Shown here: positions 22,151-42,304 of the stretch, in pieces
Layout: each line of letters opens with the position of its first letter
Position numbering within the stretch: the first letter of the stretch is position 1
Assembly (NCBI GenBank): GCA_002716045.1
Contig: PAZC01000034.1
Span: 1 to 64,000 of the forward strand
Reading direction: 5' to 3'
DNA: 64,000 nucleotides
Source: Opitutia bacterium
GTDB lineage: Bacteria > Verrucomicrobiota > Verrucomicrobiia > Opitutales > Seribacteraceae
Translations under genes and position numbers: made by a program
The notes under the pieces: model-generated
The model's database searches: none
The model's input: only the letters and a program-made list of their open reading frames with translations
Told to the model about the DNA's origin: nothing

Positions 22151-23302
22151 ATGCCCTCCCCTTTTCATTCAGCTGGCATCAGCCATCGTAACACAAACCA
22201 AGCGGGCCTTGGCCTGATAAGATTTTCCGCGCTTGTCCCATTGGTTTCCCTCGGGCTTCCTTGGGATATCGTGGGAGACGACCAGGTCGCCAAACTAGTC
22301 GAGCAGATGGGAGTTGGTAGTTCCACCGAACTGGTGTGGGGTTTCCAGTATCCGATCGCTTACTTAATAGTGGCATCATGGCTTTTTCCGGCCTTTGGAA
22401 TCAGGAGGCGACCCGGCGAAAATGAAAAGTTTGATTTACTGTGCTCCTTTCTACCTTTGCTCCTACTCGTGCTAACAGGCAGTGTTTTCGGAGTGAATCC
22501 AGGACCTCTAATCTGTTTGTTGGGTGCCTTCACTTTGATAAATGGTGTCGCAAAATTCCATAAGTCCGGTGAATCGGGCTTAAGTGCAATCAGTTCGATT
22601 TTAATGACTTCGCGGAGCCCAATGGAAGATGGGGAAGATGATGAAGCAAGTGAAGAACTAGGCTCTGCGGCATCAACGGAAAAGGAGGAAAAGAAATCCA
22701 CCGAATCAACTATATCATCACCCATTTACTCTTCTCCTGGATTTTCAATCCCAGGTTATTCTCCTGCTTCCGAAAAAAGTGCTTCAACAAATGAGGATGA
22801 TGACTTTGAGGCCCTTTTGTCCGAAGATCACAATGAGGATTCACCAAAAAGAAGTGATGAAGATCAGCCAGTTGATTCTGCTTCCAAGGATGACATCCCA
22901 ACGGATCCCGAAACTGAGGAATCAGTGAACTTCACAAATCAAAAGCCGGATTCCGATACTGAATCACCCCATGAAAGCAAGGACACCATAGAGTTTGGTG
23001 ACGAGGGGGAGGAGCAAACCGAAACTAACGAAGAGGTGCCTGACCGAATGGATCCTCCGGAGCAGGTTGAGGCGCCGGTTGATCAAACGGATTCTCCGGA
23101 TTCGAAGGAGGTGCCCCAGCCCCGAATGGATCCTCCGGGGCAGGTTGAGGCTCCGGTTGATCAAACGGATTCCCCTGATTCGAAGGAGGTGCTCCAGCCC
23201 CGAATGGATCCTCCGGAGCAGGTTGAGGTGTCTGAACCGGAGTCGGATTTTGCTGATCAAAAGGATTCTCCGGATTCGGAGGAGAAACCACACCAGGATT
23301 AA
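22151..23302 (+). CDS. Membrane protein with long acidic disordered tail
   Basis: The first 140 residues hold about four hydrophobic segments (IRFSALVPLVSLGLPW, YPIAYLIVASWLFPAF, LLCSFLPLLLLVLTGSVFG, PLICLLGAFTLINGV). The remaining 240 residues are Glu/Asp/Ser/Pro-rich and surely disordered, ending in three 26-residue repeats (MDPPEQVEAPVDQTDSPDSK type). The last 278 bases overlap, tail to tail, the coding region of the opposite-strand repeat protein. I do not recognise the family. The membrane part looks real; whether the tail is translated to 23302 needs proof, because the repeat is open on both strands. Confidence 0.6.
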   Translation: MPSPFHSAGISHRNTNQAGLGLIRFSALVPLVSLGLPWDIVGDDQVAKLVEQMGVGSSTELVWGFQYPIAYLIVASWLFPAFGIRRRPGENEKFDLLCSFLPLLLLVLTGSVFGVNPGPLICLLGAFTLINGVAKFHKSGESGLSAISSILMTSRSPMEDGEDDEASEELGSAASTEKEEKKSTESTISSPIYSSPGFSIPGYSPASEKSASTNEDDDFEALLSEDHNEDSPKRSDEDQPVDSASKDDIPTDPETEESVNFTNQKPDSDTESPHESKDTIEFGDEGEEQTETNEEVPDRMDPPEQVEAPVDQTDSPDSKEVPQPRMDPPGQVEAPVDQTDSPDSKEVLQPRMDPPEQVEVSEPESDFADQKDSPDSEEKPHQD

Positions 23303-24101
23303 ACGAACCTCCAGGTGAGGGAGTAATAGGTGGAATCGGTTGAATGGAAAAATCTGGTTTTGAAAATTCCAGGGGATCAGGTAAGCCAGCGGCAACTTTC
23401 CCCTTCTCCCGATCCGGAAACCAAGGCTGTCCTGGGGGTGGCGGGAAGAGGTAGGGATACCCAGGGGGAAAGGCTACCACTTCATCATCAGGGTCTGGTG
23501 GCGGATTCGGATCATTGAAAGCGGTGATTCGCTTGCGATCGTCATAAATCCAATCAAAAAGGATTTCTTCACCGATAATTGCCTTGTCTATGCCAGCAAG
23601 GATTTCTTGATCCAATCCTCCTCCATCTTCGGGAAGCCGACCTAGCCAAACGGCATGAAAACGCTGTAAACGCTGCTGAGGAATTCGAACGTCGATCCAG
23701 TGCTCACCTTTGGCCACCAACATACCTCGTGAGGTGCCATGAGAACGAAAGGGCTTGAGGGTGCGGACGTTAATCACCCGAAAGTGTTGATCGAACCCCC
23801 AATGCAATTCCACTCGGTTGCCGGTTCGCAAATCCTTGAACTTGTTGAGAACAAAAACATCCAAATGGCCTCCCTGTCGAGGCAAAGCGCCCTGCCAAGA
23901 AGGAATGAAGCGACGAGAATTAGCTTCGCCATCGAGCTTTACTTCGATCCAAGTAGCACTCTTGGCAGTCAGGATACCTCTAAGTTTGCCTGAGGCTTGA
24001 AAATCAGCTTGAAGGCCAAACGGGAAAAGGAGAGAGAGAAAAACAAAGATCGAGCAAAATACTCGGTTTTCCTCCAGCACCAATGTTCTCCGCATGGTCA
24101 A
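23025..24101 (-). CDS. Secreted protein with duplicated beta module and proline-rich repeat tail
   Basis: The 358-residue product has a signal peptide (FCSIFVFLSLLFPFGLQA). Two related beta-rich modules follow: GILTAKSATWIEVKLDG with RRFIPSWQG, and GMLVAKGEHWIDVRIP with QRFHAVWLG. The last 150 residues are Pro/Gln/Phe-rich with three repeats of the type NPFDQPxPQPAPEDPFGAG. It is the last gene of the array that starts at 42304 and lies 8 bases after the toroid gene. The modules look like small SH3-like or OB-like barrels, but I do not recognise the family. An extracytoplasmic spacer or surface-binding tail is an inference from composition. Confidence 0.78.
   Translation of the reverse strand: MTMRRTLVLEENRVFCSIFVFLSLLFPFGLQADFQASGKLRGILTAKSATWIEVKLDGEANSRRFIPSWQGALPRQGGHLDVFVLNKFKDLRTGNRVELHWGFDQHFRVINVRTLKPFRSHGTSRGMLVAKGEHWIDVRIPQQRLQRFHAVWLGRLPEDGGGLDQEILAGIDKAIIGEEILFDWIYDDRKRITAFNDPNPPPDPDDEVVAFPPGYPYLFPPPPGQPWFPDREKGKVAAGLPDPLEFSKPDFSIQPIPPITPSPGGSFNPGVVSPPNPENPFDQQNPTPVQTPQPAPEDPFGAGAPPSNQGNPFDQPEPQPAPEDPFGAGAPPSNPENPFDQPAPQPAPEDPFGQAPLR
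23045..23290. repeat. Three 78-bp tandem repeats coding on both strands
   Basis: Units start at 23045, 23123 and 23201, each beginning CGAATGGATCCTCCGG. The first two are nearly identical and the third decays in its second half. The 78-bp period is 26 codons, so the array stays in frame for the acidic plus-strand protein and for the proline-rich minus-strand protein at the same time. Confidence 0.9.
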
Positions 24102-24109
24102 TTACCGCC

Positions 24110-26287
24110 TTAATAGACGTATCGGTAATAGACTTCGAGCATCAAAAGGCAGAGGGTTGTTCGGTAAACCTTTGCATCCTCTGATGCTCTGGACTTTGTG
24201 GTACCTGAACCCTCTTCCTTAAAACTCCCATCGGGATTTTGAGCCCGAATAAGCTGTGGTTGCATTTGTTCGTTCCACTTTGCCCAATAGCTTCCGCCTT
24301 TGTTAAAAAGAGCCTGGGTATCGTAATACCAAGAGTAGAGATTGGATTCTTTGCTGTCATAACGAAAACGCGAACTCTTCAAGATGTGCTGACAGGCTTT
24401 GTTAACGACAAGATTACGATCCTGTCCATCGTGTCCGAATTTCCACCCCTGCAAGCCCAGGGCCCCAACCCCGGTGAGCTTGTGTTTGGCATTCTTGGCA
24501 TCGGAGCGTTTGCGGTAGCCAAAACCACCGTTTGTTGGAGAGTAAACACGATAGAAATTTTTGATGGACTCGGTTAGCGACTCCTTGACCCCCGGGAATT
24601 CAGCTCCGGAATTATAAGCTGCCTTGAGAGCCTGAAATTGCCATCCACTGACGGACGTATCGCTACCTTCAGCATCATTGCGCTTGAAGTCCAACTCGGT
24701 TTTACCATTCGCTTTGCGTACGTTCTCCAAATAAAACCAACCGCCATCACTCTTTTGACCGTTTACAATGTGTGCAACGGACTTCGTCAGAACCGGTAGC
24801 ATCCATTCTTTTTCAGTCATGCTGAAAGCTTCGGCCAAACCATAGGTCGCAATTCCATGGGCATAGGCAGCTCCATGCCGATGATTGTTATGATAGAGCC
24901 ACCCATTTTGCTTGTCACCTTTTTCCACTAGCCATTTGGCGCCTCTGGAGACTGCGTCTCCATACTCGGAAGAGTCTGTTAATTCACAGTGTCCGAGAAA
25001 ACAAAGAAGGGCCAATCCAGTCATGGCTCCAATGTGCTTCTTCCCCCATGAACCGTCCTCATTCTGAGTGGCCTTCAGCCAATCCAAACCCTTGAGTACA
25101 GCAGTCTCTACACCCACGCCTCCGCCACCCTCGGCCAAGCGACTACGGCGACCGATCTTGTCACAACGGCCCGACATGGACTTAGGGACGGACACGCCCA
25201 TGGTATTCAATTTGGCAAGAGTTCGCTTTATCTCGGTGTCACGAGCTTCAGGCCTATCCAGTTCCTGTACTTCCTCTGCCTCAAACAAGGATTGGTCTAT
25301 GGAAAACTTATCTCGCCTGGGGGTGAGGACGAAACCTTCAGAAGCCAAATCAATATTCTCCTCACCAGATCCCTCTCGTTGAAAAACAGGGGCGCCGCTA
25401 TCCTCATCCAAGTTATCTCCGATCAAAGCTTGACCAGATTCGTCCTGCTCTTCCAGCGGTTTGGAAGCAACGTTGGTAATATCTCCTTCTCCTTGGGCCG
25501 CGCCAGCTAATTGATCGTTGATGAGCTGGTCTTCATGCAGCGCATTTTGATCGTTCTCATTTGATCCTCCCTTGCGAACGTCACCTGATTCACCTGTGCC
25601 AACGTCACCAAGCTTGGCTCGTTCGCCACCCGAAGCAATTTGTCGAGATTCGCTATCAGGGACATCATCCATGGCCACATCCGATTCATCGACAATCTCA
25701 ACTTGAAACTGTTCGGACTTGGCTTCCTGCACTCCGTCATCGACCACAACGTAATAAGTAACAACGTCACCTATCTCTAGTTTCATTTTGGAAAGCGGCA
25801 GCACGCAACTAAGTTGAGCTATCTTCTTTTTCGCAGCGGAATCGACGTCCATGGGTAGATTAGCTTCTTTGCCGTCCTTGGACACGACCAGTTTGGCATT
25901 TTCCACTCCATTGTCGTCCGTAACGTCCAACTTGATCATTAGCTCATGATAAGAGGGCTTCCTTACTTTTTCACTCGGGCTGGTAATAGTAACGGTAGGA
26001 GGCTCATCCTGAAACAGGGACATCGCCGCGGTGGCCAACCAACCAAAAAGAAATGCATAGCCGAGGATCACATTGCCCAAGGCCAAGCCTTTGCCTTTCT
26101 TTGTCTTTGATTTACGACCTGTGCGTTCTAGCAACGCAAGGTGAGCAGTGGTGAGATGACCGGAAAGAAGGCCAAATATAGCTGCTGTAAGGAGAAAGCC
26201 TCCTCCATCCTCAAGGGAAAAACCTGCAGCGAGAGCAGAACCTGTTGCACCGGCAAGTATAAGGGATGATAACAGCTTACCGGTCAT
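24110..26287 (-). CDS. Membrane protein with DUF4190-like anchor and alpha/alpha-toroid (prenyltransferase-repeat) domain
   Basis: I chose the ATG at 26287 (725 residues). A TTG at 26347 overlapping the upstream stop would add 20 residues encoded by a terminator-like hairpin. The N terminus has DUF4190-like helices (GHLTTAHLALLERTGRK, then LALGNVILGYAFLFGWL). An Ig-like domain follows (PPTVTITSPSEKV to VTYYVVVDDGVQEAKS), then an acidic linker. The last 330 residues form a toroid with squalene-cyclase/prenyltransferase-like motifs: QNEDGSWG, QKSDGGWFY, PTNGGFGYR and QNPDGSFKEEG. The acidic DxDD motif of class II cyclases is not evident, so a binding role is more likely than cyclisation. It is gene 10 of the 42.3-23.0 kb array. 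Confidence 0.82.
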   Translation of the reverse strand: MTGKLLSSLILAGATGSALAAGFSLEDGGGFLLTAAIFGLLSGHLTTAHLALLERTGRKSKTKKGKGLALGNVILGYAFLFGWLATAAMSLFQDEPPTVTITSPSEKVRKPSYHELMIKLDVTDDNGVENAKLVVSKDGKEANLPMDVDSAAKKKIAQLSCVLPLSKMKLEIGDVVTYYVVVDDGVQEAKSEQFQVEIVDESDVAMDDVPDSESRQIASGGERAKLGDVGTGESGDVRKGGSNENDQNALHEDQLINDQLAGAAQGEGDITNVASKPLEEQDESGQALIGDNLDEDSGAPVFQREGSGEENIDLASEGFVLTPRRDKFSIDQSLFEAEEVQELDRPEARDTEIKRTLAKLNTMGVSVPKSMSGRCDKIGRRSRLAEGGGGVGVETAVLKGLDWLKATQNEDGSWGKKHIGAMTGLALLCFLGHCELTDSSEYGDAVSRGAKWLVEKGDKQNGWLYHNNHRHGAAYAHGIATYGLAEAFSMTEKEWMLPVLTKSVAHIVNGQKSDGGWFYLENVRKANGKTELDFKRNDAEGSDTSVSGWQFQALKAAYNSGAEFPGVKESLTESIKNFYRVYSPTNGGFGYRKRSDAKNAKHKLTGVGALGLQGWKFGHDGQDRNLVVNKACQHILKSSRFRYDSKESNLYSWYYDTQALFNKGGSYWAKWNEQMQPQLIRAQNPDGSFKEEGSGTTKSRASEDAKVYRTTLCLLMLEVYYRYVY

Positions 26288-26329
26288 GAAAAAAAGGGAG
26301 GACCGGAAGGATGAGTTGCATCCTTCCGG
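26288..26329 (-). terminator. Rho-independent-type hairpin between two genes of the array
   Basis: On the minus strand CCGGAAGGATG pairs perfectly with CATCCTTCCGG (11-bp stem, 5-base loop; bases 26303-26329). A pyrimidine tract ending in seven T follows, right up to the ATG of the toroid gene at 26287. It has every mark of an intrinsic terminator and lies between the vWA gene and the toroid gene, so it may set unequal expression within the array. Confidence 0.75.
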
Positions 26330-26343
26330 CCCCAAACCCGTTA

Positions 26344-28776
26344 TCAATCGCTTTGCGTCTTGGGGTTGTAATTACCGTCTTCGAGACCTCCACCATATTT
26401 CTGGAGATCGACGCCGACTTTACGGGACGCTTCGAAAATCAGGTTCATGTAGTACTGCGGATCAGCATCGTCCTTAACGTGATAAACGTCGCTGAACACC
26501 ACGCCATCGTGGTTCTTGATGTGATGGCGATTTTCTTCCCAATAGTACTTCTTGAGGTTGGCTCCGGAGAGGTAGCCCTCGCCGCGCCAGGCATTGCCCA
26601 CGAATTCCTTGAAGGACTTGGCATGTGTCCGGCCGCGATCGACTTGGAACATCACTCCTCGATAGAGTCCGCCATAACCACCGAGACCACCTTTGAGAGA
26701 TTTGAGATCTTCAAGGTATTTCTCTTCTGGCTCCTTGTTGAAATTAGGCATGTGGTAGATGGGTTGTGCCTCATCTTGGAAAACAAACGCCAACACGTTG
26801 TCTTTCTTGGTTGCTTCCTTGAAGAACTGTAAAGTGCGCTCACCGTTTCCATCGACTACCACCACACGACGATTGTAGAGATTCTCGTCGTTCAAGTAGT
26901 AGGGAAGAAGAGCTTGCTTCATGATCGTGCCACGCATCTCCTCAAGGGATTTACGGGTTTCCAATATCGATCCACTGCCATCGACGTGCATCATGATCCA
27001 GAGATTGCCGTCGGGAGGAAGGTCATCGTAACGGCGCTCATCGAAATCGTGATCGCCACCGCGGCCACCATGCCCATGTCCACCCACGCCACAATCAGCG
27101 CAACCTTTATCTCCACAATCGGTGCAACCTATGCCGAGACCTAGAGGTTGCTTGACCATGCCAGACACAAGTCCGGCAGCTCCGCCTGTGCCGGCTCCGC
27201 TTACCAGACCACCAACGCCTCCAGCGGCGCCAGGGCCCATAGCCATGGCTGGTCCGCCGATGCCTGGGGCACCTGGATTGCTTTTTGCATCGGTTGGAAT
27301 GGTCATGGAGCTAAGCTCTTGACCATCGTTGAAACCATCGCCGTCACTATCGGCAACCTCAGGATTGGTGCCATAAGCTCTTTCCAAAGATGCAGAGAGT
27401 CCGTCGCCATCGACGTCGGGATCGCCGGTCGGGGCTGCATTTCCTGGCTTGCTGCGGGGATCATTCGGGTTACTAAGAGCCTTGACCTCGTCTGCATCCG
27501 AAAAACCATCTGAATCTGAATCGGACTTGGCTGGATCTGTACCATAGGCAGCTTCAAGAGCATCAGGGAGGGCATCGCCATCACCATCAGGTCCAGCAGG
27601 CGCCGCGTTAGCTGGCGGAGCATAAGTACCGGTGCCGCCGAGTGCGGGAACAGGCTTGCCGTCAAGGACAGCTTCTCCGATTCCAGCTCCAATTCCGGCA
27701 GCGCCGACTCCGGCACCAATGGCTGGTGTACCGATGCCAGCTCCAACACCCAGGCTAGGAGTTTCATAAGCGTATAGCTTGCCGCCTTTGTCGACGCCCA
27801 AGCCATCACCGGCTGCATTGGCGTCTTCGGCGAAATCACCTACGTCTGCTTTGAAATCAACGTTTTCGGCATCTTTACGACGATCGACGTCTAATCCACG
27901 GAAATTGCGATCGGCGCGATCGTCCACGTCATAGCGTTCTTCCACTACGCGTTCTTCTTCGAGGGCTCTATCCAAGGCTCCGAGATCAACCAAGGCTCCG
28001 TCATCATCACCGATGCCACCCCGGTCGCGTCCCACAACGTCGACACCTCCGTCAGCACCGCCACGATGGCCGCCGCCATGACCGACCAAGTCAGGTCCGC
28101 CTATACCGCCGATGCCACCGCCATGCACATTGTTTCCGAGATTACGGCCAACGATGCGATCATCCACAACATACCCCGGATTGTCGATCACCGCAACGTC
28201 GGGAGAGTCGTCGAGAATCACGCCGTTGCCTCGATCGATGCCAACACCAGAATCATGGGCGAAACGGTTATCCACGATATTTACATAGCGGGTTACGGTC
28301 TTGGTGTTCCCTTCGGAATCGGTTACCATGTAATCAATCGGGTAACTAATGCCGGGAACCAAGCTATTGATCTTGTCAGCCCCGCTGACAGTGACTTGAT
28401 CCGTGAGAAGAGTACCATCGGCCGCCTTGGCGGTGAAGCCAGGCTCGACGTAAGTTCCGCCCAAGGGAATCGTGACGCGATCTCCTTGAGCCAGTTCGAT
28501 GACGGGCTTGTCAGGATCAGCTATCTCGTTAGCGCCTGTAATTTCATCCGTATCGACGAAAAGGCCTTCCGGATCCTCAGCGGCAAGCTGTTCCTCCGAT
28601 GAGGCCTCAGGCTTGTTGATCGCAACAAGAGCAATGAACGCGGCAGCTAGCAAGTAGCCCCCCACGACATTCGCCATGGCGAAACGTTTATATTTAGAAT
28701 CAACGACGGGGGAGGTTTCTTCCTCCAAATCCTCAGTCGTCGAATCCATCTCCACTTCTTTTTTCTTTTCGGTCAT
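26344..28776 (-). CDS. Membrane-anchored protein with DUF5011-like, thrombospondin type 3 Ca repeats and vWA-like MIDAS domain
   Basis: The 810-residue protein has a cytoplasmic acidic N terminus and one membrane helix (residues about 34-53). An Ig-like DUF5011 domain covers about 90-168, with IPLGGTYVEPGFTAKAADG. A long Gly/Asp/Val-rich low-complexity region follows. Two Ca-binding thrombospondin type 3 stretches lie at about 398-490 (DGDGDALPDALEAAYGTDP and DVDGDGLSASLERAYGTNP). A CxxC-x4-CxxC knuckle is at Cys551, 554, 559 and 562, next to a His/Gly/Asp cluster. Finally there is a vWA-like domain whose MIDAS motif is Asp599-Gly-Ser-Gly-Ser603. The C-terminal part should bind a divalent metal and a partner outside the cytoplasm. 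The start overlaps the preceding small gene by 44 bases; ATG 28749 is an alternative start. Confidence 0.82.
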   Translation of the reverse strand: MTEKKKEVEMDSTTEDLEEETSPVVDSKYKRFAMANVVGGYLLAAAFIALVAINKPEASSEEQLAAEDPEGLFVDTDEITGANEIADPDKPVIELAQGDRVTIPLGGTYVEPGFTAKAADGTLLTDQVTVSGADKINSLVPGISYPIDYMVTDSEGNTKTVTRYVNIVDNRFAHDSGVGIDRGNGVILDDSPDVAVIDNPGYVVDDRIVGRNLGNNVHGGGIGGIGGPDLVGHGGGHRGGADGGVDVVGRDRGGIGDDDGALVDLGALDRALEEERVVEERYDVDDRADRNFRGLDVDRRKDAENVDFKADVGDFAEDANAAGDGLGVDKGGKLYAYETPSLGVGAGIGTPAIGAGVGAAGIGAGIGEAVLDGKPVPALGGTGTYAPPANAAPAGPDGDGDALPDALEAAYGTDPAKSDSDSDGFSDADEVKALSNPNDPRSKPGNAAPTGDPDVDGDGLSASLERAYGTNPEVADSDGDGFNDGQELSSMTIPTDAKSNPGAPGIGGPAMAMGPGAAGGVGGLVSGAGTGGAAGLVSGMVKQPLGLGIGCTDCGDKGCADCGVGGHGHGGRGGDHDFDERRYDDLPPDGNLWIMMHVDGSGSILETRKSLEEMRGTIMKQALLPYYLNDENLYNRRVVVVDGNGERTLQFFKEATKKDNVLAFVFQDEAQPIYHMPNFNKEPEEKYLEDLKSLKGGLGGYGGLYRGVMFQVDRGRTHAKSFKEFVGNAWRGEGYLSGANLKKYYWEENRHHIKNHDGVVFSDVYHVKDDADPQYYMNLIFEASRKVGVDLQKYGGGLEDGNYNPKTQSD

Positions 28777-28987
28777 CTTCGTCGTCCTCTTTGACGGTTT
28801 CCGGTTCTGTTACGTTTTTGAATTGATTATAGGCCAAGTGAGCCGTGACCACATGCCCGATTACGCAGGCTACGGCTACGACCAAGAAAAGCAAATTCGA
28901 GAGAACTGAAGTATCAATCAGTCCCCATACGAAAGCAAGGAGAAATATCCCCAGAAAAACAATGGAAAGTACAAGTTCTTTCGGCAT
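28733..28987 (-). CDS. Small two-helix membrane protein (DUF4190-like motif)
   Basis: The 84-residue protein has two membrane helices (LVLSIVFLGIFLLAFVWGL and LLFLVVAVACVIGHVV) and a charged, Asp/Glu/Lys-rich cytoplasmic tail. The motif VIGHVVTAHLAYNQFKN closely resembles GHLTTAHLALLERTG in the toroid protein two genes downstream, so both may use the same membrane-anchor type. Its 3' end overlaps the vWA gene start. The ATG overlaps the -10 element of a promoter-like sequence, which would truncate the gene if transcription began only there. Confidence 0.72.
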   Translation of the reverse strand: MPKELVLSIVFLGIFLLAFVWGLIDTSVLSNLLFLVVAVACVIGHVVTAHLAYNQFKNVTEPETVKEDDEDDRKEKRSGDGFDD

Positions 28988-29185: not shown

Positions 29186-30118
29186 TCAACCGCCCTTGTT
29201 TAGAATCGTGCCGCCGTCCGTACCAACACCAAATGGGACGGGCAAAGTGGTGATAGGCTTCCAATTGTAACCAATCTTGCGGAGCGAGGCCGCATCCCTC
29301 AGATTATTGAAGACGGTAAAGCTTTGGGAGTCCGCGAATACGATCATCTCAATGAAGAATTCCTTGCCAAATTGACGAGGGGCGTCCTGGAGGGCCTGAA
29401 GGAATGCATTAATGGCGTCCTTGTTTAATTCGGGATCCAAGCCCATTGCGGGATTAGGTTGGGCAATTTGCCGGTTTTTATCATCGGTACCCCAATTGAT
29501 GTGCGTGGAATCGAGATTCTGTCGACCTCGTTCGATGGTAGCGGTTGGATATATCTTACCATTGGCGAGAATGAGGTTAATTTTTTCGGCTTTGGTCGCG
29601 CTTTCGATAGGAAGACTAATTTTCCGATAAGGTATTTTGTCGAGAGCCTTGGCCAAATTGTCGTGCTCCAGCACTGTTTCAAGTCGCGCGATATCCTCAC
29701 TCACGGTCAGGGATTCCTCTTCCAAGCTCTCGATTTCCTCTCGAAGTTCAAGTTGCTCGAGTTCGTTGCGCTTGGCCAACAATTCAGCGGAAACACCTTC
29801 TTCCTGCAATTGCTTCAACAGCTCCGAGAGTTCGATCTTTTCGGTTTCGATTTCATCAACGACAACTTGTTTTTGTAGCTGGAGTTGCTGGAAATTAAGA
29901 ACCGTGGCATTGTGTTCGGCCACCAAGTCCAAGAATTCCTGCTCGAGCAACTCAGTGGAATTTTCGTCCAGTCGACGCATCTTGTCCTTGAGTTCGGCCC
30001 CCTTCTTCTCGACACTCAAGGCTAGTAGCAAGGCGATCAATATGATACCGCCAAAGGTGTTGCAGAGGGTGTCCAGCAACATGTCGAGGCTACCTGAATC
30101 GTCTTTTTCCCGGGCCAT
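29186..30118 (-). CDS. ExbD/MotB-like single-pass coiled-coil protein (second copy)
   Basis: The 310-residue protein has a short cytoplasmic N terminus and one membrane helix (residues about 12-34: LDMLLDTLCNTFGGIILIAL, then LLALSV). Asp residues at 12 and 16 mark the start of the helix, where ExbD/TolR/MotB carry the proton-accepting Asp. About 120 residues of coiled coil follow and then a globular extracytoplasmic domain (ISLPIESATKAEKINLILAN, FFIEMIVFADSQSFTVFNNL). No OmpA-type peptidoglycan-binding motif is visible. It lies 5 bases after its paralogue-like neighbour, and I infer that it pairs with the ExbB-like protein. Confidence 0.78.
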   Translation of the reverse strand: MAREKDDSGSLDMLLDTLCNTFGGIILIALLLALSVEKKGAELKDKMRRLDENSTELLEQEFLDLVAEHNATVLNFQQLQLQKQVVVDEIETEKIELSELLKQLQEEGVSAELLAKRNELEQLELREEIESLEEESLTVSEDIARLETVLEHDNLAKALDKIPYRKISLPIESATKAEKINLILANGKIYPTATIERGRQNLDSTHINWGTDDKNRQIAQPNPAMGLDPELNKDAINAFLQALQDAPRQFGKEFFIEMIVFADSQSFTVFNNLRDAASLRKIGYNWKPITTLPVPFGVGTDGGTILNKGG

Positions 30119-33227: not shown

Positions 33228-36200
33228 TCAATCGGAATACCGAAAGGGAACAAGATTCTTCAAACTTCCAAATCTGTTTGCACTACTTGCTCCCGACTCT
33301 AAAAGAGCCTTCTTAAAGACAGCCTCCAAATCCTTGTCAACCGTCAACAGAGGACTGAACAGAAGCGCATTGGAGCCTACGTAGCGCTCAAGAGAAAGCT
33401 TTCCTTCCTCACGACTGACGCACCAAACGAAGGCTGGCGGTTTGCCGGAATCCAAGTAGCGAGGGTTGCCGCGTTCGTCAACATAACCCGCAAATGGAAA
33501 ATTGACCCCTGTCAGGCCTCGTAAAAAACTGAGGTTAAACTTAACCTCGCTGCCATAGCGGCGTTGACCCAAAGGACGATAGAAAGTGGTTAGTTGCGCT
33601 TGCATGGCTTGATAGGAAGTGGGGCTCATCCAATCCGTAACCTTCAGGGGCAACTGCATGATGGCCTTGAGTTGCTCATGATCTTTTTTCAAGTAAGGCG
33701 AAAGCCGCACGCCCCATTCGTCTGCCCGCATCGACATGATCTCAAAAAGTTTGTCGTGCATATAAGCCTTGAACAAAGGGGAAATCTGTGGATCCAGCAA
33801 AAGGGCATCAAGCAAGTCCAACAAAGGTTTAAGGACCTTGCGGTTTTCACTATTGAGTCGCCTTTCGATTTGCTCCTGCACAAATTTCGATTCGGGAGTC
33901 AACTGCGGTTCCTCGAGCATCGGTCCTTTGATAGCACCACCCCAGTGAGTGGATTCAAACAGACGCCCTTCGCGTTTTCCCCCTATAAGGAAGTTACCCT
34001 GCTGCATAACCTTTGCCACGGGATTATCCACCGGCTTTCCGGTCTCATCAAATTTCTCCTCGATCTTTTCTTGCTGGATTTGTCCAAAGGACAGGAGAAA
34101 CTGGAGCAAGTCTTTCTTGGTATTATATTTTGGTTGGCCACCAGTGCCTATGCCCGCTGACACGGGGGTACAGTTGTTAAGCTTGTATCGCCAAACGTCA
34201 CGGATACCAGAGGCGCTCACGATAACGGAAAGGTCCTCGTATTCTCGCTGTGAGTCATCTGGCAGCACACCCAGCTCTCCAGTCTTGATCTTACCCCAAA
34301 CCTCTTCCGGCCCAATGAAGATGAGCTTGCGATGAAGTTGCCCCCGATCGTTGGAGAAAATGTTACGGTTGGTGGTAATCTCCTGAAGCGCTTGTAACGC
34401 GATGCCATCGTAAGCCTTGACCTGACGGGCACGATCCATGGCCGCGAGATAGCTCTCGAGATCGGTAGCCTCACTCAATTCACCACGAGCTTGGGTGCCC
34501 TGCCCCATCTTGGCCAAAATCTTGCCCTGCATCTCGACGAGCTTGTTGATGCGTCTCTCTTGGACGAAGGAGGGTTTGAACGCTTCCTCCTGATTACCTC
34601 GAAAAGAAACCAACTTCTTTATGGTTTCGCCCAAAGTGGAAAGATCGCCTTTGGGATTTTGGGAACGACCAGCGTCAAGAGAGTCTGCAATTTCTTCGGC
34701 TTGTACTAAAAGTTCCTCAATTTTTTTTTTGGAAGATTCTCTCACCAAGTGCCTGTAGGTATTCCAAAGAGTTCGAACTTCCCTCAATTGCTTGGAAACC
34801 TCCAGTTGTTCCGTGGCCTGCAACTTGTTCTTAAGCTTTTCATAGCGAGCCCCGAGTTCTTCGATGAAAGTTCCTTGATTAAGGACGAAATTGTCAATTT
34901 CCGCTTCTGATTTGAACTTTTGAGCGGCAGCGACAATGCGACTCTTTAGTTTGGCAAGTTCTCCCGTAAGATCGTCGTATTCATCTGCAGCAATGGCCGA
35001 ATTCTCCTGAATGGACCTAATCTTGCCGTCAATTTCATCCAAAAGGGACGAGACCTCTGGAGAAGAAGCATAGAGATGAAAAGGAAACTCGGCAGTAAGC
35101 TGAACTTCCTGCTCCATGAGAGGTTGCCATTGAAGCAATTTGGGCTGTTGGTTGAGATCCTTCAATTCAGTCAAAACTGCAATTAAACCATCAATGTCCT
35201 GCTTGCGTTCTTTGGAAAAGCTGAGGTGAGCGCGCGTGACTTCGGAGCGAAGATCTCGATCGACATCTTTCATGGCTTCTTCATAGGCCGGCAGGAGAGC
35301 ATCAACTCGCTTGCGCAAGACCTTTCTCAATTTGATTCCTTTCGCGATGTCCTCGTCTCGAAAGCGTTGAACGAAATCCCACATTGCATTAAGATTCGGG
35401 GGATTTGTTGCTAACATCCCCTCACAAAGTTTGATTACTACGTCGGTGCGACCACGCTTCATGGTAGGTTCATCCGCGAAGGAAAGCGTCGTACCTTCAG
35501 TGGCCACAAGAAAGTCTTCCTGTTTGCCGGCAGTGTCCAAGGCGCAAGCGTTAACGAATGTCTTTTCCACAACCGAAGCCAAGCCTTTTTGGAGTTCTTC
35601 GTCTTTGCTCTCCATGTACTTTTTTTGCACCTCATCTTGACCAAAAGATTGAAGGAAAGCCCACTGCTTGAATGGATCCTGAAGATTTTCAGCGGCTACA
35701 ACTGAATCGAGCAAATCGGATCGTTCCTGCCTGAAGTTAAACCAGATCAGGAAGGCCACCACGGCCGCAACAGTCAGAACGACTGTGCCAATCCAAATCC
35801 TCTTGGTGCGTCCTCTCTGTTTGGCAATGCGGTTTTTGACCCATCCAACGCCTTTCTGCAGGTCCATGAGCACTTCGGGAGGCACGTCGGAACGTCCCAT
35901 GTCCTCGAATTCCTTCCTGAAAGTATTTATTTCAGCTTGGAACTCGAGATAGTTTTCGATTGAAAGCCCGCCAGCGTTCTCGGCTTGCTTCATCTCAGTG
36001 ATACGGTTCTTGAAACGAGAAACCAACGCCTGCAAGGCACGGGCGTCGCGATCTTCCTCCATGCGCTCTTCGGCCCACTCCCTGAACTCGTTATAGGCAT
36101 TGATATCGTCTGCAGCGTGCTCGCTCTCCAAATCGTATTCCTGACTGAGCTCGTAAAATTCTCCAATAAGAGACAGGGCTTCTTTCCATTCCTCGGCATC

Positions 36201-36911
36201 ACGGAGTTGGCCCAAGTCGACAAGAATTTGCTCGCACCTCAACTTGGAATCCGCCCGTCGATAGGTTTGGCGAACAGCGAGCGCATTTTCCCAAAGAGTT
36301 GCCTTAGTGGATTTTTCCGGCGGAATCACCCAGTCGGTCGATTCCACCTCGTCCATAATGTCCAGAAGTTCGTCTTTGCGCCCCTCCCGGATGAGCAAGT
36401 CCAAATGGTCAAGGCGCTGCTCCAGTATCTTTACACTGAGTTGACCAAAGTGTCGCTTGGCCGCCTCATGATCTGGATTCATGCGGAGAATCGTCTTGAG
36501 AATCTTAAATGTTCGCTGCTCGTCTCGACTACGCATGGCGGTGCGATATTCTCGAAAAACCGGATGGTCTTCACTGATCTTCTCCCCATAAAGACCTTCG
36601 AGCATATCAACGTGGTCATCGGTGAAATTGGGTCCCAGATAGATACTCTTCTCTTCGCACAGCTCCTTCCATTTGGCATCGCCACCAAAAGAGAGTCGCT
36701 CCATCAAATCCAAGACGTTTGGCGATTCCTCGGCCAACTCCAAGGCCGTGTACTTGTTGCCACTTCGAATCAGGGCAACGCATTGATCCAATCGCTGGTC
36801 GATGATCGTACGATAACGAGCATACTCTTTCGCAAGAGAATGGATAACAGGATCGGTAGCGCCTTCACGGAGCACCTTTTCTATGCGGTCTACAAGTCTG
36901 TCTATATTCAC
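33228..36911 (-). CDS. Large helical/coiled-coil single-pass membrane protein
   Basis: The 1227-residue protein has a cytoplasmic, TPR-like all-helical region of 360 residues, one membrane helix at about 371-391 (RIWIGTVVLTVAAVVAFLIW) behind a basic stop (KQRGRTK), and more than 800 extracytoplasmic residues. Residues about 390-850 are rich in heptads. The last 300 residues look globular, with beta segments (YGSEVKFNLSFLRGLTGVNF, PAFVWCVSREEGKLSLERYV). I do not recognise a named family. The topology is the same as that of the GAP1-like neighbour, and the two genes are separated by 8 bases. I infer a structural rod that spans from cytoplasm to periplasm. Confidence 0.78.
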   Translation of the reverse strand: MNIDRLVDRIEKVLREGATDPVIHSLAKEYARYRTIIDQRLDQCVALIRSGNKYTALELAEESPNVLDLMERLSFGGDAKWKELCEEKSIYLGPNFTDDHVDMLEGLYGEKISEDHPVFREYRTAMRSRDEQRTFKILKTILRMNPDHEAAKRHFGQLSVKILEQRLDHLDLLIREGRKDELLDIMDEVESTDWVIPPEKSTKATLWENALAVRQTYRRADSKLRCEQILVDLGQLRDAEEWKEALSLIGEFYELSQEYDLESEHAADDINAYNEFREWAEERMEEDRDARALQALVSRFKNRITEMKQAENAGGLSIENYLEFQAEINTFRKEFEDMGRSDVPPEVLMDLQKGVGWVKNRIAKQRGRTKRIWIGTVVLTVAAVVAFLIWFNFRQERSDLLDSVVAAENLQDPFKQWAFLQSFGQDEVQKKYMESKDEELQKGLASVVEKTFVNACALDTAGKQEDFLVATEGTTLSFADEPTMKRGRTDVVIKLCEGMLATNPPNLNAMWDFVQRFRDEDIAKGIKLRKVLRKRVDALLPAYEEAMKDVDRDLRSEVTRAHLSFSKERKQDIDGLIAVLTELKDLNQQPKLLQWQPLMEQEVQLTAEFPFHLYASSPEVSSLLDEIDGKIRSIQENSAIAADEYDDLTGELAKLKSRIVAAAQKFKSEAEIDNFVLNQGTFIEELGARYEKLKNKLQATEQLEVSKQLREVRTLWNTYRHLVRESSKKKIEELLVQAEEIADSLDAGRSQNPKGDLSTLGETIKKLVSFRGNQEEAFKPSFVQERRINKLVEMQGKILAKMGQGTQARGELSEATDLESYLAAMDRARQVKAYDGIALQALQEITTNRNIFSNDRGQLHRKLIFIGPEEVWGKIKTGELGVLPDDSQREYEDLSVIVSASGIRDVWRYKLNNCTPVSAGIGTGGQPKYNTKKDLLQFLLSFGQIQQEKIEEKFDETGKPVDNPVAKVMQQGNFLIGGKREGRLFESTHWGGAIKGPMLEEPQLTPESKFVQEQIERRLNSENRKVLKPLLDLLDALLLDPQISPLFKAYMHDKLFEIMSMRADEWGVRLSPYLKKDHEQLKAIMQLPLKVTDWMSPTSYQAMQAQLTTFYRPLGQRRYGSEVKFNLSFLRGLTGVNFPFAGYVDERGNPRYLDSGKPPAFVWCVSREEGKLSLERYVGSNALLFSPLLTVDKDLEAVFKKALLESGASSANRFGSLKNLVPFRYSD

Positions 36912-36919
36912 GGCAATTA

Positions 36920-39900
36920 TTACTTGAAGTGGATCAATTCAGCCTCGGGTTGAAGCTGACCTTGGCGAAAGAGACGCAATGACCATTCCTCGGAATGAAA
37001 ATATGAGTTCATTAACCGCAGTTTGCGGGCAGGCTCATATTCTTGGGGCACAAGACGAGGATCTTTCTTGCTGATCTCGGTTTGGAGCAAGGCAAACCAT
37101 TGCTTGAGTGGACCCAGTTGACGAGTGGTAGTGCCTCGATCAAAAAGGTGTTCCTTGTACATTTTGACGAGATCGGGATTCTCGATGCAGGTAATTCCTT
37201 TGCGAAGCTCTGCCGAGGTAAGCTCGGCGGGAGCATGGACTTCGGCGAAATCCTGCAAATAACGGTTCCACTCCTGCGTGTACCTAGGGGTTGCAACGCG
37301 GGCCTCGGGCGTTGCCTTGTGCGCGATCAATTGATCATAGAGTTTCTTTACGGCGCCGGTATTCGGTTCGATAATTTCCCTGACCACGGCGAAGATCATG
37401 GTCCCAATGCCTTGGTCATTCACTCCGAAAGCTCTCTCCGCCTCGCGCAAAAAACGCAAAGTGCCGATGACTCTATCGATATCCCGTGAGAGGTTCTTGG
37501 GATCGTAACCCAAACCAAAAGGCCTGAAAGCCTCCTCTTTGGCTCGCATCGCAACTTTACGCCAAAATTCCTGATACTCCAAATCGTTGAGGTAAAACTT
37601 CCTGGGATCCAAGGTTAAATCACTCCTCAACTTATCCAGGGCGGCAGGAGAGTAACCGTGGATCTTGCGGAAAAAATCCAATACAGCGTCTATCACGTGG
37701 GGACCAAAGCTACCCACGCCAGATCCAGCCTTGTAATTGCCTTTGGATGAGCCTGCTCGAGACCCGAACTGCTCCAAGGCTTGGTAAATTTTAGGCAAGG
37801 GCATCTTGGCGGCCTGTTCGCCAGTGGTTTTTTGATTCAAACTAGAAATCTGCTCCTGAAACTTTTTTCGTAAATCCGTCATGTAATCGATGAACAAAGC
37901 AAGTTCGCAGGTCAAGGAATCCTCGGCAACCGGCTTTACCAAGAGGTTTGGAAAATCGAGTAACCTGCGATTCGTAAAATCTTTCGGAGAAAGGCTCGCT
38001 CCGTAAAAAACTCTGGCACTTGGATTGACGGACAATTTCAACAAGCGCGGCCCAGTCGAACCAACCACTCGCAAACCGTGCCCAAAAGCACCTTTCTTGG
38101 CTAAGCTGACCCGATTGCCAGTCATTGCGAGATAGGCTTTGGGCAATTCGTTAGGCTTGTTGCCAACGACCCGTGGGGAAAGCAAATAAAGATCAATGGA
38201 TCGATTGGTTTGAGGATCGGGCAAACGCAAGACAACACCTCGGGAAGCCGCGTTTCGGGCTCGCTGATTCTCAAAAATAACGCTCACTTCGCTAGACGAC
38301 TTGAAAAGAAACCTAAGAAATAAAGTAGATCCTTCTTCCTGGGGAGTCTCCAAAGAATATCGCTCAATGCCAAGAAGCTCTTTCACCCGGGCATCGTAAA
38401 TGGCAACATACCGTTGGGCTCCTTCCATCAGGGGGGTATCAACAAGAGCCTGCGCCCCAGCATAATCAGTTTCCCAAACGAAAGCAGTCTTCGAATCTGC
38501 GATCCGAGACAAGGCGGTCTTCAACGTTTGGACAAAGGCTGCATCACCTTGGGCAGAAACAGATTCGAGTTGGGGATCCTCAACTTCGCCCTTGGTTAGC
38601 CACAAGACATGGCTGCCAACAACCGGAAAGGGGGGAGGCGCCGTGGTCAAAACAGGGGTGGGAGTGGGGGGAGCAATAACCGCAGCTTCGACAGAGAAAT
38701 CAAATTCGCGGACATGGCCTTGGTCTTCGTTCCAAATGAATGTCACCTTACGGCCAGCAGCCAAATACTCTCTCAACTCTTCAAATCTAGCACGCCGTTC
38801 CGGAGGAAACACATACTTCAATTGAACACCTTGAGGGGAAACGAAACTAAGCATGAAATTGTCCTCGACGACATCAATGTCACTGGCTGCAAACTCAAGT
38901 TTTCTCGAGAGCGGAGTGCTTGGCAAACGGGGCGGATTATTGGGCGCGGTTGAGTCCGTTCCATCAGTCCCAGCAAGAGCTAGAGTCGAAGGAGCTGCCA
39001 AGGACTCAAGAAGAAAAGTTCCTGGCTGCTTTCCATTGCGAAAAGTCACAGCCATTTCCTGGCCAACCTTCAAGTCTCTTAGTCTATCGCCGAATCGATC
39101 ATAGTCATCGTTGCTCATGGCGGAAACGTCGATTCGAGCGGGAGGAGACTCCCCAACCGTGAATTCAATCCAAGTATTTAAACGTTCATCCTTCGCCGTA
39201 ACTTTAGCCAAAGAAGCTACTCCTGCTTGAACAAATTCTGCCGTACCATTCGGATTATTCGCCTCTGGGTCGGCGTCCAGGTCACCGCCATTATCCTTAG
39301 CTTTCCCACTATTCTCGGCAATGGGATTAGGATCCACTGGATCATCTTTCAATACATCCAAGACGCCAGACTTAAGCACGATGAAAACAGCCAAAAGCAT
39401 AACGGCAGCCAAAGCCGAAATCCAAGGCCATTTGGCTGGTTTCTTCTTTTTCCTGCCAGCCTCTCCTCCACTTTGTGCGGTAGCGGTGGATTGGGCCGCA
39501 GCATGAGAAGCGGCGGCTTGGCGAAATTGCTCCTTTTCGGTCCGTGAAAATCCTCCAGATCCACTTCTGCCTTCGCTGATACGAGTTGATTCACCAAACT
39601 CTCCAGCAGAAGAGCCTGCCTCAGCCGCTTCACCCACAGGGGGCGGTGGAGGAGTTTTCTTGATTGCTGCCTTACGCCCATTGCGGGCAACGAAAACCTG
39701 CTTCTCATCCATGGGGTCCCGGACAGCACTCTGCTCAAAGGCCGTAAAATCCAAATGGTTGGGAACTCCATTTTGCTTCAAGCGAAGGGATGCAGGTTGC
39801 CCACAACCACCTATCCAAGCGTAATCTTTCGCATTATCAGTTTCCTGAAGATAGGTGGTAAATGCAAACTGCCAAGCGTCCATTGGCATCGCAACAAGAG

Positions 39901-40477
39901 CCGAAGATTCGGCAAATAAATGAAGTAAGTTACCTTCTTGGCCAGGATGATTTTCGAGCAAGATTGGGTGCTTCGCCTTTTCAGCGACCAGATAGGCAGC
40001 ATTACCGCCATCGCCAGTGATGGCTTGCCAGTTTTGGGCTGGAGACAATCCAGACATCTTGCAGGCAGATACGTCGGTAATCTCATCGTCCTCAATCCAT
40101 CGGGAAGAACCTTCCCAAAAATCCAGCCAACCGTTCCATTGGAGGAAAATTTCAGGAGGGCTAGGACTTACCGCTATCTCCAAGCCATCGAAGATCAAAT
40201 GGTGAGCAATGTAATTCGTCCGGTTGGTGTAATCGAGGCCTGCGTCACGAATGCGAGTCAGGACGTAAAATTCTTCGGTTCCTAATTCGAATCGACGAAA
40301 ACTGTTGATCTCTGCCTTGGTGGCACCTTCGCCAAGATTGAAGTCATATACACTAAGCCTCTCCAGCTCCCGAACTAACCGGCTTCGCAAACTCCTGTGG
40401 CGAGCTACCGTACAAAAACCAGTACGCCCGGGCTCAAGCCCTTGGGGGGTACTGGTGAAGATCATTTGGCGAGCCAT
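36920..40477 (-). CDS. GAP1-like (GTPase-associated protein 1) single-pass membrane protein
   Basis: The first 240 residues resemble the GAP1 N-terminal domain type found next to prokaryotic conflict-system GTPases: IFTSTPQGLEPGRTGFCTVA, TNYIAHHLIFDG and WQFAFTTYLQ. A Pro- and Gly-rich linker (about 270-345) leads to one membrane helix at about 350-370 (WPWISALAAVMLLAVFIVL). About 800 extracytoplasmic residues follow, including two similar stretches around FEFTV/DVSAMSNDDYDRFGDRL and VEDNFMLSFVSPQGVQLKYV. Classical GAP1 proteins are soluble, so membrane anchoring is unusual. It is 33 bases after the GTPase gene. Family assignment is from memory of the motifs and would need a profile search. 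Confidence 0.75.
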   Translation of the reverse strand: MARQMIFTSTPQGLEPGRTGFCTVARHRSLRSRLVRELERLSVYDFNLGEGATKAEINSFRRFELGTEEFYVLTRIRDAGLDYTNRTNYIAHHLIFDGLEIAVSPSPPEIFLQWNGWLDFWEGSSRWIEDDEITDVSACKMSGLSPAQNWQAITGDGGNAAYLVAEKAKHPILLENHPGQEGNLLHLFAESSALVAMPMDAWQFAFTTYLQETDNAKDYAWIGGCGQPASLRLKQNGVPNHLDFTAFEQSAVRDPMDEKQVFVARNGRKAAIKKTPPPPPVGEAAEAGSSAGEFGESTRISEGRSGSGGFSRTEKEQFRQAAASHAAAQSTATAQSGGEAGRKKKKPAKWPWISALAAVMLLAVFIVLKSGVLDVLKDDPVDPNPIAENSGKAKDNGGDLDADPEANNPNGTAEFVQAGVASLAKVTAKDERLNTWIEFTVGESPPARIDVSAMSNDDYDRFGDRLRDLKVGQEMAVTFRNGKQPGTFLLESLAAPSTLALAGTDGTDSTAPNNPPRLPSTPLSRKLEFAASDIDVVEDNFMLSFVSPQGVQLKYVFPPERRARFEELREYLAAGRKVTFIWNEDQGHVREFDFSVEAAVIAPPTPTPVLTTAPPPFPVVGSHVLWLTKGEVEDPQLESVSAQGDAAFVQTLKTALSRIADSKTAFVWETDYAGAQALVDTPLMEGAQRYVAIYDARVKELLGIERYSLETPQEEGSTLFLRFLFKSSSEVSVIFENQRARNAASRGVVLRLPDPQTNRSIDLYLLSPRVVGNKPNELPKAYLAMTGNRVSLAKKGAFGHGLRVVGSTGPRLLKLSVNPSARVFYGASLSPKDFTNRRLLDFPNLLVKPVAEDSLTCELALFIDYMTDLRKKFQEQISSLNQKTTGEQAAKMPLPKIYQALEQFGSRAGSSKGNYKAGSGVGSFGPHVIDAVLDFFRKIHGYSPAALDKLRSDLTLDPRKFYLNDLEYQEFWRKVAMRAKEEAFRPFGLGYDPKNLSRDIDRVIGTLRFLREAERAFGVNDQGIGTMIFAVVREIIEPNTGAVKKLYDQLIAHKATPEARVATPRYTQEWNRYLQDFAEVHAPAELTSAELRKGITCIENPDLVKMYKEHLFDRGTTTRQLGPLKQWFALLQTEISKKDPRLVPQEYEPARKLRLMNSYFHSEEWSLRLFRQGQLQPEAELIHFK

Positions 40478-40510
40478 AACAAATTAAAGACGCGCGGTGG
40501 ATGTGTTTTA

Positions 40511-42304
40511 TTAGGCTACTGGTACGAGATCGGGAACAATTTCCGAGAGTACCCAGATCGTCGGAACCTCAATCATTATGGGATCGATCTTATCTGGATC
40601 CGGGGCAATGAATTCCTGTTCGCCGTTCTTAAAAGTGCGAGGGCTATGACCAAAAGCGCTAACGGGGAAAAATTTCACGTTCTTCGACAAAGCTTCGGAG
40701 TTAGCTACCAAGGAAGGATGCATATCTGTTAGCCAATCGCGTAAAATGCTAGAGTTACTGTCAACGACATCAATATCCAAACGCTTGTCCACTATAGGGT
40801 TACGGATCATATCCCAATCAATCCCTTCGGCTTCAGCCAAGATATCGCATTTCCCAATCATCACAGCCATGGGAGCATCGATCTTGTCCGAAATAGCGAT
40901 ATTCTGATTCTGCTTCACGCGAATCTCCAACTCCGCCATGATGACATCTTGCTGGTCAAGGCGCTTGCCGCTGGGATCCAGAGCAAACTGCGGGTCATCA
41001 TGACCACGTAGCACACGTCGAAATTCGGGGCTGGCAATAGGGTCGAAAAGGAAAAAGATTCCGGATGAACTCGCCACGTGCAACGCTCCAGGCGATTCCT
41101 CGTTGGCAATGCCGGGCTCGAAATGCTCTCCCGCGTTGTCATAGAAAATCAGCGAACAATCATGGCCGCTTCCTCGAGGGTCTGACATGCTGAAAACAAA
41201 AGGTTTGGGCAATGCCACGATTTTCCCATGGCGTGGGAAACGTTCGTACATCTCCCCTTCCAACTGGGTTTTGATAAGCATCGCCGACTCAACTGCAGCC
41301 GCCGAAAATAGCCTATTCTTCATGGCATTCAAAATAGCGTTGCAGGTAGGATCGGCATCACGAAAGGCTACCCCGAACTCACGAAACAACGAGCGTTGCA
41401 GCTCTCGGACCAAGACACTCAAGTAATATGATTTACCGGCGCTCGGCGCACCCACTATAGAGAAAATGTGATGTGGCACGTCCATGAAACCCGGGGGTAA
41501 TTTCCGATGGCAATGCGGACAAGCGCCATCAGTCGTTGGCAACCCCATAGGATCCAATGCTTGTCCCTTTGAATTGAACTCGGTGGGAACGAAACGCAAC
41601 ATGGCGTCGTCACCCAATTTGGGATCGCCACGCAAATCATCGTGCAAGGCAATGCTCAAGACATCGGGACGGTCAAATTTCAGCCAACAGATAGGGCAAG
41701 TAAACTCACCTCGATCGGGGTCAACGACAACGGGCGCCTGATACTCCTGCTCGATATCTTCCTCAGTTTCCTCCTCAGGCGGAGACAAGGCATCAATCAA
41801 AGAAACCACCCAAAAAGCAACGTCAAGCCCCACTGGCTTGATGGCGCAATCCTCGAAGCTTGCACCCATTTCTCGGATCAAGTCCGGGATTCCGTAAAGA
41901 TTGGTTTGTCCCAAGGAACCACCCGATCGACCATTAACCACTTCCCAGCGATCCCTGGTAATTTGTTCGGCCCATGCCTTGGGATCCTTACCGACGAAAA
42001 CACACAATGGGGTGCTGGCAAACTGCAGCGTACAAACCTGATCCTCTTCCACCGTAAAAGGCTCGGTAACGGGACCACCATTTATAAGAAGCAAGGAATC
42101 GTTTTTCTTGTTCGCAACCAATCGAAAGTTGGAACCCGACTTCTTGATCATGCAGGCACCTTCCCAATCCGGCGCATCCTCGGGAGGAGGAACCTTCCAG
42201 TCACTGTTGCCCAAGCAACCAGCGATAAAAGGAAATTTCTCCAAGGTTCGGTATTCCCCGGTCAGACAGTGGTATATTCCGATTTGGTTTTTCTTGAGAA
42301 TCAC
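40511..42304 (-). CDS. Zinc-ribbon TRAFAC-like (double-GTPase family type) GTPase
   Basis: The gene starts with GTG at 42304 and encodes 597 residues. The N-terminal 120 residues are beta-rich and FHA-like (SLLLINGGPVTEPFTVEEDQ). A zinc ribbon with Cys203/206 and Cys262/265 (CPICWLKF, CPHCHRKL) comes next. The G domain has a Walker A GAPSAGKS at 285-292, a switch II-like FYDNAGEHF with Asp389, a G4-like IGKCD at 483-487 and a G5-like SAFG. No membrane helix is seen. Such GTPases with zinc ribbons sit beside GAP1 proteins in predicted counter-invader systems. It is the first gene of the array and I infer that it is the cytoplasmic switch. Confidence 0.82.
   Translation of the reverse strand: MILKKNQIGIYHCLTGEYRTLEKFPFIAGCLGNSDWKVPPPEDAPDWEGACMIKKSGSNFRLVANKKNDSLLLINGGPVTEPFTVEEDQVCTLQFASTPLCVFVGKDPKAWAEQITRDRWEVVNGRSGGSLGQTNLYGIPDLIREMGASFEDCAIKPVGLDVAFWVVSLIDALSPPEEETEEDIEQEYQAPVVVDPDRGEFTCPICWLKFDRPDVLSIALHDDLRGDPKLGDDAMLRFVPTEFNSKGQALDPMGLPTTDGACPHCHRKLPPGFMDVPHHIFSIVGAPSAGKSYYLSVLVRELQRSLFREFGVAFRDADPTCNAILNAMKNRLFSAAAVESAMLIKTQLEGEMYERFPRHGKIVALPKPFVFSMSDPRGSGHDCSLIFYDNAGEHFEPGIANEESPGALHVASSSGIFFLFDPIASPEFRRVLRGHDDPQFALDPSGKRLDQQDVIMAELEIRVKQNQNIAISDKIDAPMAVMIGKCDILAEAEGIDWDMIRNPIVDKRLDIDVVDSNSSILRDWLTDMHPSLVANSEALSKNVKFFPVSAFGHSPRTFKNGEQEFIAPDPDKIDPIMIEVPTIWVLSEIVPDLVPVA

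Follow-up and report, generated by a model that had tools for sequence, protein, structure and literature searches.

A DO-GTPase/GAP1-N2 operon linked to an ExbB/ExbD-type motor in Verrucomicrobiota

The stretch analysed here (the window) comprises 64,000 nucleotides of a marine verrucomicrobial bacterium (Opitutia bacterium; GenBank assembly GCA_002716045.1, contig PAZC01000034.1, positions 1 to 64,000) and carries on its minus strand an operon in which conserved DO-GTPase/GAP1-N2 genes are physically linked to a proton-motor-type trio with conserved functional residues. All 11 open reading frames (ORFs) listed in a preliminary description proved real, running in one direction from 42304 to 23025 with intergenic gaps of 5–49 bp, apart from the g7/g8 interval of 198 bp and slight overlaps of g8 with g9 and g9 with g10. 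The 11-gene extent given there is reduced to ten genes (g1–g10, 24110–42304), as g11 is left behind where the other ten are absent. The 198-bp gap marks the border between a phylum-wide cassette and an add-on of the window's family, a marine Opitutia/Opitutales group. Features of the region, all on the minus strand, are (TM, transmembrane segment):

g1, 40511..42304, minus strand: cytosolic zinc-ribbon P-loop GTPase, DO-GTPase2-like, 597 aa; core (PF19993, G motifs, Cys)
g2, 36920..40477, minus strand: GAP1-N2 protein, 1185 aa, one predicted TM (355–373); core (PF20013, charge topology)
g3, 33228..36911, minus strand: single-pass 'rod', 1227 aa, TM 372–390; core (TPR-profile contact, AlphaFold2 model of an orthologue)
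g4, 32100..33221, minus strand: GYF_2 and RDD membrane protein, 373 aa; core (PF14237, PF06271)
g5, 31124..32050, minus strand: ExbB/TolQ/MotA-type subunit, 308 aa; core (PF01618, invariant Thr)
g6, 30124..31092, minus strand: ExbD-like subunit a (ExbDa), 322 aa; core (FxxFQDIIT TM helix)
g7, 29186..30118, minus strand: ExbD-like subunit b (ExbDb), 310 aa; core (LLDTLCNxFGG TM helix, model)
g8, 28733..28987, minus strand: small two-TM membrane protein, 84 aa; family-specific add-on (kept in family operons)
g9, 26344..28776, minus strand: one TM, Ig-like, Gly-rich linkers, TSP3 and vWA-like C-terminal domain, 810 aa; add-on (PF16403, PF18884, alignments)
g10, 24110..26347, minus strand: N-terminal TM segments, Ig-like stretch and alpha/alpha toroid, 745 aa; add-on (SQHop_cyclase_C, DUF4175)
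g11, 23025..24101, minus strand: secreted repeat protein, 358 aa; outside the system (stays beside the aldehyde dehydrogenase gene in genomes lacking g1–g10)
aldehyde dehydrogenase (ALDH), 42610..44190, minus strand: flanks the insertion or loss site on its upstream side, listed for context; operon neighbour in the family

Profile scans against Pfam took in ten of the proteins (g1–g7 and g9–g11). g1 matches DO-GTPase2 (PF19993) with 24.6 bits (E 2.3e-5), just under the curated cut-off of 27, and the profile matches 8/8 g1 orthologues (best 8.8e-7). A GAPSAGKS-type Walker A, DNAGE and GKxD (G1, G3 and G4 motifs) are invariant in eight sequences, as are the zinc ligands C203/C206/C262/C265 (CPxC and CPHC), giving one zinc ribbon versus the two usual in DO-GTPase/GAP1-N2 systems. 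g2 matches GAP1-N2 (PF20013; E 3.1e-19, 69.8 bits versus a cut-off of 24), with a weak match to GAP1-M (15 bits, below cut-off) and none to the Pfam GAP1-C profile. The zinc-ribbon P-loop GTPase and the GAP1 protein named in the preliminary description thus fall within known families. Charge-based (positive-inside) topology was obtained for g2, g3 and g9, in agreement with envelope-spanning single-pass proteins as first proposed; in g2 and g3 the N side of the single TM is strongly positive. The GAP1-N2 domain of g2 is predicted to be cytoplasmic, with the large remainder outside the membrane.

The 1227-residue single-pass rod (g3) is as originally described; it has no family match in Pfam, although its profile touches designed TPRs. 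It appears to consist of a TPR-like solenoid, predicted to be cytoplasmic, the TM and, outside, a helical stalk and a C-terminal beta domain; an AlphaFold2 model of an orthologue (L078; predicted local distance difference test [pLDDT] 84, predicted template modelling score 0.46) has solenoid, TM region, stalk and beta domain. For g4, previously read as a double GYF_2-RDD protein, RDD (PF06271) and one GYF_2 (PF14237) are matched by profile, while the first GYF copy is seen by eye only. In some relatives the counterpart of g4 is a GYF-trypsin protein, a variant given for planctomycetes by Kaur et al. (PMC7159879). Docking of GYF on Pro-rich GAP1 linkers was considered and found unsupported (PPP/PPG in 27/83 linkers versus ~17 expected from shuffling); these motifs are absent from GAP1 linkers of most family orthologues.

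g5 is a MotA/TolQ/ExbB-type channel protein, as first described (MotA_ExbB, PF01618, E 1.4e-9), and T212, T253 and T254 are invariant in 12 sequences from across the phylum. Its presumed partners each have an invariant Asp at the start of the sole TM helix: D20 in g6 (FxxFQDIIT; 13 sequences) and D16 in g7 (LLDTLCNxFGG; 11 sequences). The TM Asp of ExbD-type proteins and Thr of ExbB-type proteins are proton-path residues in ExbBD, TolQR and MotAB, and we take the conserved Asp and Thr of g5–g7 to be equivalent to those of E. coli. The ExbD-like label of g6 and g7 rests on gene position, a single N-terminal TM helix bearing the invariant Asp, a coiled coil and a C-terminal domain; on these grounds two ExbD-like proteins were retained, with the proviso that neither matches Pfam ExbD. 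The g7 model (pLDDT 66) has the TM, the coiled coil and a small alpha/beta C-terminal domain (b-b-a-b-a-b) whose strands follow the order typical of TolR/ExbD. A second motor cluster in the same genome (L200:6600-11195, contig C20) encodes one ExbB, two ExbD-like proteins, the first without the TM Asp, and a 437-aa single-TM protein, and has no GTPase.

Since g5 also matches TolQ, a Ton/Tol-like role in envelope upkeep or polymer uptake was considered, in which the motor would energise outer-membrane events and the GTPase would only tune it. A motor of the Planctomycetes-Verrucomicrobia-Chlamydiae (PVC) group with two TolR-like proteins has been proposed as a force transducer (PMC12204202), and a family clade whose genomes are mostly smaller (2-2.6 Mb) lacks the operon, both in keeping with such a role. 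It is nevertheless improbable, as no TonB/TolA-type C-terminal domain or SHLS motif was found in the window proteins, and no TonB-dependent receptor or Pal was found in the operon by profile scan.

Scanning 84,980 species genomes for the GTPase by two seed motifs, which favour close relatives, gave 46 loci, all from records named as Verrucomicrobia/Verrucomicrobiota and including Verrucomicrobiaceae and Victivallales; the in-depth survey covered Verrucomicrobiota. Here the seven-gene cassette GTPase-GAP1-rod-GYF-ExbB-ExbDa-ExbDb recurs, again including Verrucomicrobiaceae and Victivallales. Among 60 loci around GTPase matches, 54 have GTPase, GAP1 and rod, 26 of these also ExbB and both ExbDs, and none (0/60) has ExbB without the full set. 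In the reverse direction, a profile of ExbDb alone identified 36/388 phylum genomes; the GTPase, present in 74/388, accompanies ExbDb in 34 of the 36, and in 29 it lies no more than 15 kb away (hypergeometric P 8.6e-26, relatedness ignored). Linkage is kept across distant lineages even where gene order is changed or divergent (L089, L152, L194 and L195). Co-occurrence in other genomes, on which the preliminary description had staked its grouping, is thus far above chance, and the proposed coupling of GTPase-GAP1 to an ExbB/ExbD motor is supported by both physical and phylogenetic linkage. If GTPase-GAP1-rod and ExbB-ExbD-ExbD were separate modules that happen to be neighbours, this would account for the occurrence of each apart (GTPase triads without ExbB; the second motor of this genome without GTPase), but the 34/36 co-occurrence and the linkage despite changed order make this very unlikely.

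Within the family, operons on long enough contigs share all ten genes and their order, mostly with 35-75% identity, and lie downstream of ALDH wherever the contig reaches, in G009 with several other genes between. Nine family genomes have ALDH but no operon; in all (9/9) g11, which has no family match in the profile search, follows ALDH with slightly overlapping reading frames, and the genes further downstream are retained. g11 is therefore an older neighbour outside the system, and g1–g10 have been gained or lost as one block. In an ALDH tree, carriers and non-carriers of the operon separate on one branch (support 96/94), so that a single gain or loss occurred in the family and inheritance looks vertical. 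Carriers of the operon are mainly the larger genomes of the family; one clade, of mostly small genomes (2-2.6 Mb), lacks it, completeness varying among genomes. A promoter-like match at 29014-28986 was set aside because it overlaps the g8 start codon.

These findings bear on the possibility of an anti-invader system, in which GTPase and GAP1 would act as membrane sensors of infection, with the ExbB/ExbD channel as the effector, through depolarisation or as a Zorya-like motor. Conflict roles are predicted for DO-GTPase/GAP1-N2 by Kaur et al. (PMC7159879), the ExbB domain is common to ZorA, presence across the phylum is patchy, and the trypsin-fused GYF proteins of relatives fit a proteolytic cascade. 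Against this, PADLOC identified no system among the window proteins, its only matches being weak ones of ZorA to g5 and, in three other proteins, marginal ones to domains or coiled coils, with no ZorB/C/D/E or other effector; the operon keeps to a fixed chromosomal site and was gained or lost just once within the family; none was found in phages and only two weak partial matches in plasmids; and the large conserved periplasmic parts and the Ig/TSP3/vWA proteins point outward. An anti-invader function is thus possible but unlikely. The defence role raised in the preliminary description found no positive evidence (neither an effector nor a PADLOC system, and seemingly vertical inheritance at a fixed site), and its comparison with Zorya came down to the generic MotA_ExbB domain and the weak ZorA matches.

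Profiles of g8–g10, the family add-on, gave no matches near operons outside the family. The small membrane protein noted earlier is g8 (84 aa, two TM, 28733-28987), which is conserved in family operons. It shares a GHxxTAHLA motif with the N-terminal membrane part of g10 (24110-26347), and on this basis g8 may be a relative of the g10 membrane domain. g10, 50-54% identical among family operons, matches SQHop_cyclase_C (E 3.4e-5) and DUF4175 (6e-4), bearing out the toroid protein of the first description as one of squalene-hopene-cyclase type. g9 carries in order a TM, an Ig-like domain (PF16403), a Gly-rich stretch, TSP3 (PF18884) and a 226-aa C-terminal domain with DxSGS. In alignments of the C-terminal domain, DxSGS is invariant in all homologues and is kept in a 29% identical paralogue with DASGSM. 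The earlier reading of g9 as a MIDAS/Ca-binding protein holds for the motif and TSP3, not for a match to the VWA profile. Among 388 phylum genomes, the g9 domain was found in this genome only. One GAP1-N2 paralogue (in L047) bears a g9-type domain after its TM, a fusion that connects the g9 domain with GAP1 and puts it on the outer side of the membrane. The plan of g9 resembles that of the gene directly after ExbDb in Victivallales-type loci, which encodes a TM, Gly/Ser linker and vWA domain; of four scanned, two (2/4) are above the Pfam cut-off, a third is below it and one shorter protein has no match. The vWA gene is absent from the Verrucomicrobiaceae cassette.

Other related proteins were noted. 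A three-TM protein of the same genome (L218:7181-8632, contig C15) has a g9-like domain with DASGSM. Stand-alone GAP1-N2 proteins with one TM have either an outer g9-type domain, SHD1 and FGE-sulfatase (L047:3363-7298) or outer leucine-rich repeats (L046:565-2718). In Verrucomicrobiaceae, the region ~5-10 kb upstream of the GTPase-GAP1 operon contains a kinase-like ORF and another, of 516 aa, that fits no family (L086:3-209, L086:475-4837); the same arrangement is seen at the left of L081, L082, L084, L085 and L096, and a tubulin/FtsZ-family ORF of this upstream group at the edge of L086 and L096. GAP1-N2 systems are linked to tubulins in other phyla (PMC7159879).

Taken together, these features are consistent with a GTPase-switched, proton-driven trans-envelope machine, in which a 5:2-type motor would pass force to extracytoplasmic rods; we hold this with about even confidence. 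The zinc-ribbon DO-GTPase g1 would work with the cytoplasmic GAP1-N2 domain of g2, as homology suggests. g2 and the rod g3, each predicted to span the inner membrane once, would relay its state to the periplasm, with the GYF protein g4 as a putative membrane adaptor. ExbB (g5) and the two different ExbD-like proteins (g6, g7) would form a 5:2-type proton motor, as their conserved residues and linkage suggest. The GTPase state would set when the motor engages, gating it, and movement would travel via the periplasmic stalks to the outer surface, the motor thereby driving surface components. The load in the window's family would be g9 (TM, flexible linker, Ca-binding-type TSP3 and MIDAS-type domain) with g10, and in Victivallales-type genomes the TM-linker-vWA protein. 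By analogy with Agl-Glt of Myxococcus, the task may be adhesion at the surface, moving surface proteins or work on the envelope; the force, secretion and envelope-remodelling roles suggested in the preliminary description are putative.

Several observations weigh against this scheme. Twenty-two loci of >15 kb have the GTPase-GAP1-rod triad with no ExbB nearby, so that the switch can work without a motor. Fold searches against the PDB gave only vague helical-solenoid matches for the rod (none with E <= 0.001) and no significant match for the ExbDb model (best TolR match 5by4, weak, E 0.19). Pfam VWA has no match in g9, and comparing the profiles of g9 and vWA gives a weak match (prob 18%, E 0.0014). 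The TonB/TolA-type SHLS motif is missing, as above, and similarity to GltJ and CglD of Myxococcus is confined to GYF and TSP3 stretches. In addition, no significant sequence relatives of the GTPase, ExbB or the g9 domain were found in the PDB. Very tentatively, if such motors form a class across the phylum, this GAP1-N2 branch would control the envelope mechanically and not serve immunity. Should the motor be what the GTPase switch acts through, the immune role predicted for the branch would have to be reconsidered. The cassette in Verrucomicrobiaceae, which include metagenome-assembled genomes named Prosthecobacter, would make this testable should a cultured strain carry it.

From its DO-GTPase2-like g1 and the GAP1-N2 domain of g2, the locus can probably be placed among the DO-GTPase/GAP1-N2 systems described by Kaur et al. 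(2020), which sit at the membrane, are reported in verrucomicrobiae and planctomycetes, and typically have FNIII-repeat partners, with other variants in planctomycetes (PMC7159879). Shared features are a zinc-ribbon GTPase followed by GAP1-N2, a TM in GAP1 and a GYF partner (GYF-trypsin or GYF-TM). However, the locus adds the ExbB/ExbD/ExbD motor, the TPR-like single-pass rod and the TSP3/vWA-like protein, and has no FNIII protein or known effector; the lack of FNIII matches in the ten scanned proteins lowers, but does not remove, the case for membership. With Zorya (ZorAB) it shares the MotA/ExbB-type channel domain of g5, but has two ExbDs and a GTPase in place of ZorB-E, nuclease or helicase.

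Clusters of TPR, tolQ, two tolR and vWA genes in PVC bacteria have been proposed as force transducers (PMC12204202). The locus resembles these in one TolQ-like and two heterologous TolR-like proteins, a TPR-type protein and the Victivallales TM-linker-vWA gene, but here GTPase and GAP1 lead the operon and the vWA gene is lacking in Verrucomicrobiaceae. The TM helix with SHLS plus C-terminal vWA domain characteristic of the vWA force transducers was not found; the vWA profile is matched in Victivallales gene 8, not in g9. The main text of Kaur et al. 2020 (PMC7159879) has no mention of MotA, TolQ, TolR, ExbB or proton, and the 2025 force-transducer paper (PMC12204202) none of a GTPase, so that the combination of GTPase/GAP1 with an ExbB/ExbD motor appears undescribed in either. 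The locus thus unites two separate lines of work, on DO-GTPase/GAP1-N2 'conflict' systems and on orphan PVC TolQ/TolR motors with vWA.

The nearest working analogy appears to be Myxococcus Agl-Glt. Agl-Glt is under control of the Ras-like GTPase MglA and includes the GYF protein GltJ and the TSP3/vWA surface adhesins CglD and CglB. Its proton motor, AglRQS, combines a TolQ-like protein with two TolR-like ones and powers a complex that spans the envelope (PMC3169522, PMC11444678). No full-length Glt/Cgl homologues were found in the locus (GltJ 16/450 bits, CglD 53/400 bits); as these matches are at domain level only, the locus may work like Agl-Glt rather than be a member, and its GTPase is not MglA-like, nor its GAP MglB. 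The likeness comprises one ExbB-type and two ExbD-type proteins, GTPase control, a GYF membrane protein, and TSP3 and vWA surface proteins. Very tentatively, a phylum-wide class of DO-GTPase/GAP1-switched 5:2 proton motors applying force to vWA/TSP3 surface proteins might represent an independently evolved second solution for GTPase-controlled force at the surface, besides Myxococcus gliding.

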